Source: Flavisolibacter ginsengisoli DSM 18119 (GTDB taxonomy: Bacteria; Bacteroidota; Bacteroidia; Chitinophagales; Chitinophagaceae). From it: a stretch of DNA of 64,000 nucleotides. A program made the position numbers and the translations under genes. Shown here piece after piece: positions 38,666-44,256 of this stretch. The notes below the pieces were generated by a model. It was not told the DNA's origin. It saw only the letters and a list, made by a program, of their open reading frames with translations, and made no database searches. The stretch spans positions 1 to 64,000 of the forward strand of contig NZ_FQUU01000004.1 in the NCBI RefSeq assembly GCF_900129295.1, written 5' to 3'. Every line of letters starts with the position of its first letter. The first letter of the stretch is position 1.

Positions 38666-38710
38666 GTGCGCAACCGGTCCCGCCAACAGCGGGATACATC
38701 CCGAAGAACA
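38666..38710 (-). repeat. tRNA-Pro(CGG) 5'-half fragment with a palindrome in the D-arm
   Basis: On the plus strand the segment GTGCGC-AACCGG, then TCCCGC-CAACA-GCGGGA, then TACATCCCGAAGAACA matches tRNA-Pro(CGG) plus its 5' flank (38510-38534). The exception is that the seven bases GCTGCGC of the D-stem side are replaced by a 17-base palindrome. The anticodon and T-arms are absent. The match includes flanking bases GAAGAACA, so it arose by duplication of the neighbouring locus. Confidence 0.75.
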
Positions 38711-40708: not shown

Positions 40709-41040
40709 GTCGGGACGATCCCGCCGAATGGCGGGACGACCCCTAGCACCCCATGCTAGTGCCCTTAGCGGGACCGGTCTCGCCATTGGCGTGATACTCC
40801 CCGAAAATTTCCATTAAACCGTGATGTAATAAAAAAGGGCAACCATTTTATTGATTGCCCTTTAACTGGTCGGGACGATCCCGCAGGAATGGCGGGACGC
40901 CCCCCCTGGCACCCCATGCTCCCGTCCTTAGCGGGACCGGTCCCGCCATTGGCGTGATACTCCCCGAAAATTTCCATTAAACCGTGATGTAATAAAAAAA
41001 GGCAACCATTTTATTGATTGCCCTTTAATTGGTCGGGAGT
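40709..41040 (-). repeat. Tandem tRNA-Pro(GGG)-derived repeat, ~163-bp period, two copies
   Basis: Unit 1 is 40709-40868, unit 2 is 40869-41030, and a third begins at 41031. On the plus strand unit 1 has four parts. First is the tRNA 3' acceptor GTCGGGACGA. Next, TCCCGCC-GAAT-GGCGGGA replaces the T-arm. A 26-base exact match to the tRNA variable region and anticodon arm follows (40737-40762). Last is a D-side block with another palindrome (TCTCGCCATTGGCGTGA). Each unit continues into GGGCAA-N12-TTGCCC plus an A-run, a minus-strand terminator. Unit 2 keeps the layout but its anticodon stem has diverged; unit 2 encodes CCA after the acceptor. Confidence 0.8.
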
Positions 41041-43712: not shown

Positions 43713-43782
43713 GAAAATTAAAGTCCTTTACTGTATCAAAACCTGACATTTTGAAACATTAAAGGACTTAATAAGAGATTCG

Positions 43783-43857
43783 TCGGGACGACAAGATTCG
43801 AACTTGCGACCCCTAGCACCCCATGCTAGTGCCCCGCCTCTGGCGGGGCTACGTCCC
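43783..43857 (-). repeat. tRNA-Pro(GGG)-like copy with its D-arm replaced by a hairpin
   Basis: On the minus strand this is tRNA-Pro(GGG) except in the D-arm. GGGACG-TA is followed by GCCCCGCC-AGA-GGCGGGGC, a perfect 8-bp hairpin in place of the 17-base D-arm, then the exact anticodon arm (anticodon GGG), variable region, T-arm and 3' acceptor. The first acceptor pair is lost. Bases 43782-43832 match 44134-44184 of the real tRNA over 51 bases without mismatch. The missing D-loop GG makes a functional tRNA unlikely. The GIY-YIG gene's last codons and stop lie in it. Confidence 0.85.
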
Positions 43858-44095
43858 TCAGTAGTCTTTTAAATGCCTCGCCACCTTTATAGTTCTTTAT
43901 TTGAATTTCTCTCTTCAATGCTGCAGCTTTATCTGGAAATTCCTCCTGATAGATAAGTATAAAAGGTATTCTTGATTTTGTAGAGCGTTGTAAGCCAGCA
44001 TTGTGAAAATTTACTCTTGCCACTACATCGGCAGTGCTGCCTATATAATATCTTCCATCTTTTGAACTTCTTATAATGTATACAAAATAGCTCAT
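43826..44095 (-). CDS. Small GIY-YIG nuclease-domain protein
   Basis: An 89-aa single-domain GIY-YIG protein (UvrC-N / YhbQ-like). The N-terminus FVYIIRSSKDGRYYIGSTAD carries the paired tyrosines and G of the motif, followed by VARVNFHN (catalytic Arg region), FILIYQEEFPDKAAALKREIQIKNYKG (Glu) and a short tail. The last ~12 residues (LLRDVAPPEAGH) and the stop are encoded by the altered tRNA-Pro copy, so the tail is repeat-derived. Its ATG lies 7 bases after the hairpin that follows tRNA-Pro(GGG) on the same strand. It may be a mobile or homing-type nuclease, or a structure-specific nuclease; neither is shown. Confidence 0.88.
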   Translation of the reverse strand: MSYFVYIIRSSKDGRYYIGSTADVVARVNFHNAGLQRSTKSRIPFILIYQEEFPDKAAALKREIQIKNYKGGEAFKRLLRDVAPPEAGH

Positions 44096-44102
44096 AATAT
44101 AA

Positions 44103-44128
44103 AGCCGTCTTCATTTTAGAAGACGGCT
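44103..44128 (-). terminator. Hairpin after tRNA-Pro(GGG), directly before the GIY-YIG start
   Basis: AGCCGTCTTC (44103-44112) and GAAGACGGCT (44119-44128) pair perfectly over 10 bp. On the minus strand it lies 3 bases after the encoded CCA and is followed by TTATATT and the GIY-YIG ATG (44093-44095). It may end the tRNA transcript or gate read-through into the nuclease gene. Confidence 0.75.
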
Positions 44129-44131
44129 CAA

Positions 44132-44208
44132 TGGTCGGGACGACAAGATTCGAACTTGCGACCCCTAGCACCCCATGCTAGTGCGCTACCGGGCTGCGCT
44201 ACGTCCCG
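44132..44208 (-). tRNA. tRNA-Pro (anticodon GGG)
   Basis: On the minus strand: acceptor CGGGACG/CGTCCCG, D-arm GCGC...GCGC, anticodon stem CTAGC/GCTAG around ATGGGGT (anticodon GGG, decoding CCC/CCU). The T-arm is CAAG-TTCGAAT-CTTG, the discriminator is A, and CCA is encoded (44132-44134). All expected invariant parts are present. It is the likely parent of the altered copies at 40709, 40869, 43783 and 44222. The neighbouring trmH product would methylate G18 in this class of tRNA (family knowledge). Confidence 0.96.
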
Positions 44209-44221
44209 AAATTTTAATTAT

Positions 44222-44256
44222 TACCGGTCCCGCCAAAGGCGGGATACGTCCCGAAA
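44222..44256 (-). repeat. tRNA-Pro(GGG) 5'-end fragment with palindrome
   Basis: On the plus strand TACCGG, then TCCCGCC-AAA-GGCGGGA, then TACGTCCCGAAA. The outer parts match the D-loop and 5' acceptor of tRNA-Pro(GGG); GCTGCGC between them is replaced by the palindrome. The substitution point is the same as in the 38666 fragment and in the D-side of the 40709 unit. Confidence 0.75.

Follow-up and report, generated by a model that had tools for sequence, protein, structure and literature searches.

The first 64,000 nucleotides of the forward strand of contig NZ_FQUU01000004.1 (assembly GCF_900129295.1) from Flavisolibacter ginsengisoli DSM 18119, which we will call the window, contain a gene for a small GIY-YIG nuclease that lies between two copies of tRNA-Pro(GGG) (Table 1). 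One copy is intact, and it is the only gene for the GGG isoacceptor that we matched in this draft genome. The other copy, which we will call tRNA', is also full length, with the D-arm GCGCAGCCCGGTAGCGC swapped for a perfect hairpin (GCCCCGCCAGAGGCGGGGC). Both copies exceed the Rfam cut-off for tRNAs (29 bits), and tRNA' retains a tRNA-like fold (-39.9 kcal/mol, z = -3.9). The original prediction for this locus, made from the DNA alone, had reported a 51-bp direct repeat of the tRNA, which is indeed identical at 51/51 positions with an offset of 352 bp. It was also correct that the repeated unit holds the tRNA's terminator hairpin and an open reading frame (ORF) for 89 amino acids; the ORF's C-terminal residues and stop codon are encoded within tRNA'. 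The layout had been compared to insertion at the 3' end of a tRNA: an intact tRNA and a copy do flank the ORF, but the copy is not just a 3' part, as only its D-arm has been exchanged. No integrase was found among the flanking ORFs that we tested at the window copy (the flanking genes tested encode a TonB receptor and a SpoU methylase), in agreement with the prediction.

The window protein has seven matches in its own genome, and each of them is preceded by tRNA sequence on its own strand. Six are strong copies (the window's included), which follow tRNA-Pro, tRNA-Met (two, in tandem), tRNA-Val (two), and tRNA-Ser. The seventh is cut off at the edge of a contig, behind a 3' fragment of a tRNA. 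Because there are about 42 intact tRNA genes in this 4.68 Mb genome, we estimate that about 0.5% of strand-specific positions are within 500 bp of an intact tRNA. The genome has at least three types of hairpins, one per nuclease lineage, including GCCCCGCC..GGCGGGGC for Pro, TCCGCC..GGCGGA for Met, and TTCCGC..GGCGGAA for Val. (At locus L004, around 2370-2200, the intact tRNA-Val is preceded by two additional 5' copies of tRNA-Val in tandem, with TTCCGC..GGCGGAA in place of the anticodon arm.) Two weaker GIY-YIG matches (52–54 bits, versus at least 91 bits for the six complete tRNA-linked copies) are not linked to tRNAs and resemble a separate subfamily. Relatives at unrelated loci, which would speak against the original prediction, were found only in this separate, lower-scoring subfamily. 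A second, longer GIY-YIG subfamily that is not linked to tRNAs is seen at loci L278 (G000:C23:14934-15167) and L279 (C15:17599-17835). Both have dispersed TTTGTCATCCCGCCGTAGGCGGGATCTTTGG-type palindromes within about 350 bp downstream, as well as CACAGATCCTTCG..GGATGACAAGG repeats, and L278 has one palindrome upstream as well. This looks like another pairing of a nuclease with a palindrome.

In other genomes, the family is also found next to tRNA genes, as had been predicted. We picked the 80 best homologues from a genome collection by protein similarity alone, with a six-row alignment as the query. (The set is rich in Arg and Leu because this closer alignment served as the query.) An intact tRNA lies within 500 bp in 76 of the 80, always on the same strand and usually at a distance of 0–80 bp; the remaining four either have pieces of a tRNA next to the ORF or are located at the end of a contig. 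Among the family's 178 distinct members, 152 have a linked tRNA, which is never on the opposite strand, and 25 of 28 members in a further sample from the phylum are linked as well. The hosts include Bacteroidota, several groups of the candidate phyla radiation (CPR), Ignavibacteria, Chlorobiota, Elusimicrobia, Margulisbacteria, Omnitrophota, Planctomycetota, and Nitrospirota. Of the 389 good Bacteroidota genomes that we sampled, 254 have a match at 1e-8, some of which may belong to the sister subfamily. Presence is patchy among related genomes. A search of plasmids gave no match, and 50,697 phage records gave one match at 1e-5 (an uncultured phage, found with a query from the Arg lineage); when we relaxed the phage search and used the window protein as the query, 18 distant matches came up. 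In the open-access papers that we searched, we found work on SegB of phages, but no description of a GIY-YIG family that is chromosomal, linked to tRNAs, and accompanied by hairpin-tagged copies of tRNAs.

The general plan of these loci is a tRNA copy, the ORF, and another tRNA copy, with one of the two copies intact. In 56 cases (layout D), the intact tRNA comes first and tRNA' follows the ORF. In 95 cases (layout U), the order is reversed, and the end of the ORF usually touches the intact tRNA or runs into it. When compared to the local tRNA, the far flank has a median score of 44, versus 16 for tRNAs of other isotypes, and it outscores every control tRNA that we tried in 81 of 92 U loci and 48 of 55 D loci. 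Perfect stems of at least 6 pairs are present in 62 of 92 U flanks and 44 of 56 D flanks, versus 5% of shuffled sequences. The palindrome CCTGCC..GGCAGG has been cleanly inserted, in most cases into the D-loop of tRNA-Arg or tRNA-Leu. TCCCG..CGGGA, TCCGCC..GGCGGA, and GCCCCGCC..GGCGGGGC replace an arm of the tRNA, partly or wholly, often with a hairpin of similar length; such replacement is seen in many copies of hairpin classes B, C, and D. Our search pattern fixed the outer five pairs of class B hairpins; the inner pairs vary (A-T, C-G, G-C, or T-A) yet are paired in 18 of 18 cases. Some tRNA' copies of tRNA-Pro (L101, L103, L104, and L009) have, besides the hairpin in the D-arm, another one that is inserted into the T-arm or close to it. 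Also, a TGTCATTTCGACG..GGAGAAATC-type repeat is found near some loci (L072, 1960-1800, and L237, near 1500, in G025); at L237, a CCTGCC palindrome sits within such a repeat.

The lineages of the nuclease follow the isotype of the tRNA and the class of the hairpin more than they follow the host group. On a tree of 177 nucleases (81 columns), the amino acid of the tRNA changes 34 times, versus a mean of 76.7 when shuffled, and the hairpin class changes 4 times, versus 28.8. There are well-supported clades for Pro (99), Met (99), Val (98), Leu (97), mainly Arg-TCT (98), and Asp (90), and the Leu clade has CPR bacteria mixed with Bacteroidota. For the named genomes, isotype changes 15 times, which was never reached in 300 shuffles, while the host group changes 17 times, versus a mean of 19.9, which is a weak signal. 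(Nearly all of the hairpins in this subset are of class A, so the test of hairpin class has no power there.) Members of the Pro clade have nearly the same hairpin throughout, and the remainder of tRNA' matches the host's own Pro isoacceptor, be it GGG, CGG, or TGG, so the nuclease and the hairpin travel together, and the tRNA part appears to be local.

Genomes from the same genus have orthologous SpoU/tRNA-Pro(GGG) sites that lack the GIY-YIG gene, so both occupied and empty alleles of this site exist; an empty tRNA-Pro site was another expectation of the original prediction. In genome G308, 15 tandem units of 360 bp, most of them identical, lie behind tRNA-Asp, and G010 and G015 have shorter tandem arrays. 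There are also arrays without the ORF, made up of hairpin-bearing copies of tRNA-Pro and the terminator, in G010 and G016 (with units of 113 and 102 bp). (Short tandem arrays of this kind, at L042 and L048, are apparently non-autonomous.) Within the window, the two tandem 163-bp units are non-autonomous copies, and the 5' fragment just upstream of the intact tRNA-Pro is the remnant of a second unit that lacks the ORF. More broadly, CCCGCCNNNGGCGGG-type sites are enriched in the window, with 7 sites at up to 2 mismatches versus 0.66 expected.

Table 1. Features of the nuclease locus and related tRNA-Pro sequences in the window (positions are within the 64,000 nucleotides).
Feature	Position	Strand	Match or remark
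Intact tRNA-Pro(GGG)	44132..44208	-	ARAGORN; Rfam 60.5 bits
Terminator hairpin of the tRNA, between tRNA and ORF	44102..44129	-	
GIY-YIG nuclease ORF, 89 amino acids, single domain	43826..44095	-	Pfam GIY-YIG
Second tRNA-Pro copy (tRNA'), hairpin in place of the D-arm	43782..43858	-	ARAGORN tRNA-Pro(GGG); Rfam 42.9 bits
Cognate palindrome GCCCCGCC-AGA-GGCGGGGC	43831..43849	-	Class shared with other genera of the tRNA-Pro clade
Direct repeat, copy 1 (51 bp)	43782..43832	-	
Direct repeat, copy 2 (51 bp)	44134..44184	-	
5' tRNA-Pro fragment CGGGACGTA-[TCCCGCCTTTGGCGGGA]-CCGGTA with hairpin, just upstream of the intact tRNA	44223..44253	-	
Two tandem 163-bp units derived from tRNA-Pro, with hairpins and terminator, without the ORF	40709..41038	-	
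5' tRNA-Pro fragment with hairpin TCCCGCTGTTGGCGGGA, upstream of tRNA-Pro(CGG)	38666..38703	-	

The window protein matches Pfam's GIY-YIG family (PF01541) with an E-value of 3.1e-16, and the domain spans residues 3–69. In an alignment of 26 family members, Y17, H31, E63, and K67 are invariant and R27 is nearly so; among 20 family members, all five are invariant. The Tyr, Arg, and Glu that mark the catalytic site of the GIY-YIG superfamily are thus present. The gene is under purifying selection at the protein level, as differences at third codon positions are in excess (19, 18, and 36 differences between the window and G017 at the three positions). A confident structure model, with a predicted local distance difference test (pLDDT) score of 85, is a bare GIY-YIG domain that matches the structures of other GIY-YIG proteins. 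The nearest solved relatives, by sequence and by fold, are the UPF0213 protein BH0048 (PDB 1zg2; 5e-19) and SLX1 (7e-9 for a plant homologue). The corresponding matches for the fold have Z = 8.0 for BH0048, about 7 for SLX1 and its plant homologue HIGLE, 6.9 for I-TevI, and 6.8 for UvrC; these values are modest and indicate the fold only. SLX1 is a eukaryotic junction nuclease, which acts on branched DNA with its partner SLX4. Searches of PADLOC, NCBIfam, and PHROGs gave only weak matches, mostly to models of homing endonucleases. SegB proper has a C-terminal DNA-binding part beyond its GIY-YIG domain; with 89 amino acids and a domain that ends at residue 69, the window protein lacks this part.

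We propose that the window locus is probably one copy of a widespread, minimal, and free-standing homing-type element, which targets tRNA genes and comes with a cognate hairpin. The element would comprise a single-domain GIY-YIG gene and a short palindrome that is matched to the nuclease's lineage, and its arms would be the sequence of whichever tRNA gene it occupies. The nuclease would cut the tRNA gene of its preferred isotype, and the break would be repaired from a donor locus by way of the conserved tRNA homology, so that the ORF and the hairpin are copied in. This would leave the intact tRNA kept or restored on one side and, on the other side, a tRNA copy whose arm is replaced or interrupted by the hairpin, which is the arrangement that we see. 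The hairpin might mark the occupied copy, either by spoiling the target site or by serving as a binding site for the nuclease. Renewed cutting and recombination between the repeats could then produce the tandem arrays, including the units without the ORF. Since the ORF lies between tRNA copies and the intact tRNA is uninterrupted, the element is not within an intron or intein. The idea of a minimal homing-like cassette for tRNA genes came with the original prediction, and it is supported by the variety of neighboring tRNAs and by the empty sites. Further support comes from the consistent linkage to tRNAs, the coupling of isotype and hairpin class to the nuclease's lineage, the precise positions of the hairpins, the tandem arrays, and the purifying selection.

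We favor a homing-type element because SegB gives a direct precedent. SegB is a free-standing GIY-YIG homing endonuclease of T-even phages that amplifies tRNA-Tyr and segB as tandem repeats, by way of breaks and homologous recombination, and there is microhomology between the 5' end of the tRNA and the 3' end of segB (PMC13096335). Like the nuclease gene in the window, segB lies outside of any intron, among tRNA genes, and is linked to tandem repeats of a tRNA and the nuclease gene (PMC13096335; PMC2988022). SegB is borne by phages, while the family described here is chromosomal, with a single domain of 80–90 amino acids, lineages that are coupled to isotypes, and cognate hairpins. The published SegB survey covers phage and archaeal-virus proteins only and notes no preference for an isotype (PMC13096335; PMC2988022), and hairpin-tagged tRNA copies do not come up in the passages that we consulted.

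Several observations weigh against our proposal. We infer cleavage, targeting, homing, and transfer, and none of these was observed as an event. Of the 151 linked loci, 72 do not have a hairpin of the four named classes, and many forks of the nuclease tree, which is short at 81 columns, are open. Judging from its model, the 89-amino-acid nuclease lacks the separate DNA-binding domain that SegB and I-TevI have, which makes its choice of a tRNA gene hard to explain. Self-protection is unexplained as well, because the intact tRNA keeps its uninterrupted sequence. And the conservation of the palindrome's sequence with the nuclease lineage accords better with a binding site than with a scar alone.

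Because the hairpins are matched to the nuclease's lineage, we also considered that the element might move by recognizing hairpins in single-stranded DNA, as REP/RAYT elements (repetitive extragenic palindromes and their associated tyrosine transposases) or IS200-like elements do, or as a site-specific single-strand nuclease might, instead of by homing with double-strand breaks. The nuclease would nick beside its cognate hairpin where single strands are exposed, as in lagging-strand or transcribed DNA. The agreement of hairpin class with nuclease lineage, the preserved pairing of the variable inner pairs of class B stems, the similarity of the fold to UPF0213 and to the branched-DNA nuclease SLX1, the hairpin units without an ORF, and the dispersed palindromes that flank a sister subfamily of GIY-YIG genes in the window's genome are all consistent with this. 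The Ssn proteins of Neisseria are site-specific single-strand GIY-YIG nucleases with NTS repeats, so a GIY-YIG protein with a cognate repeat has a parallel; to our knowledge, the Ssn repeats are not derived from tRNAs. REP/RAYT elements and REPINs likewise combine a small nuclease gene, its own class of palindromes, and non-autonomous palindrome units (PMC3116915). But their enzyme is an HUH tyrosine transposase, while we found only a GIY-YIG nuclease, and their palindromes are dispersed between genes instead of lying in tRNA copies (PMC3116915). In a pattern search of one genome, the tRNA-type hairpins were not dispersed in this way: the CCGCCNNNGGCGG sites of the window's genome that were read away from tRNAs (all but four) carry other flanks, in most cases another palindromic repeat whose ends are TGTCAT or ATGACA, so we rejected a dispersed REP-like family. 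The specificity for isotypes would also require recognition of something beyond the hairpin. Overall, we consider movement by way of single strands to be unlikely.

Another idea is that the gene has been domesticated, with a nuclease that adjusts or protects the dosage of tRNA genes or acts on tRNA precursors, and with a regulatory tRNA'. The purifying selection, the strict placement on the same strand downstream or upstream of the tRNA, and the tRNA-like fold of tRNA' are compatible with this. But patchy presence, empty orthologous sites, arrays of up to 15 copies, and several different tRNAs hit in one genome are typical of a parasite, so we find domestication quite improbable. We give still less credence to a passive origin, in which the ends of tRNAs are hot spots for integration and the ORF is leftover cargo from islands or prophages that were borne by an integrase. 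An intact tRNA with a partial copy does resemble the duplication of an attachment (att) site, and in tRNA elements of tyrosine integrases, an intact tRNA and a partial copy also flank the insert. Here, though, the tested flanking ORFs include no integrase, a hairpin stands in for one arm of the tRNA, and the units that we read are tandem, ORF-sized, and contain only the ORF and the tRNA repeats, so we rejected an integrase-borne island. We rejected cargo of phages or plasmids as well, given the lack of plasmid matches and the single uncultured phage at 1e-5. Furthermore, a passive origin gives no reason for the coupling of isotype and hairpin to the nuclease, which already speaks against it, and we consider it very unlikely. 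As for an artefact of assembly, the same layout is found in a single-contig genome (G015) and in many others, so we rejected this too.

Because its members sit next to many kinds of tRNA genes, in about two thirds of the sampled Bacteroidota genomes and in other phyla, the family seems to be a class of mobile elements of tRNA genes that has been overlooked. A bolder version, which we offer tentatively and with some doubt, is that this is a new class of prokaryotic mobile element, in which a nuclease of about 85 amino acids would recognize both its own hairpin and the tRNA gene of a single isotype, would spread across phyla by using the universally conserved tRNA as homology arms, and would swap whole arms of the tRNA for the hairpin, with a leftover copy that keeps its tRNA-like shape. 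Either way, the family offers many natural sets of a nuclease, its target tRNA, and its cognate hairpin for studying the sequence specificity of a minimal nuclease. Our proposal would also explain the tandem pseudo-tRNAs among the genes that tRNA finders predict, and it suggests that there is a chromosomal counterpart to the recently shown amplification of tRNA genes by SegB in phages.
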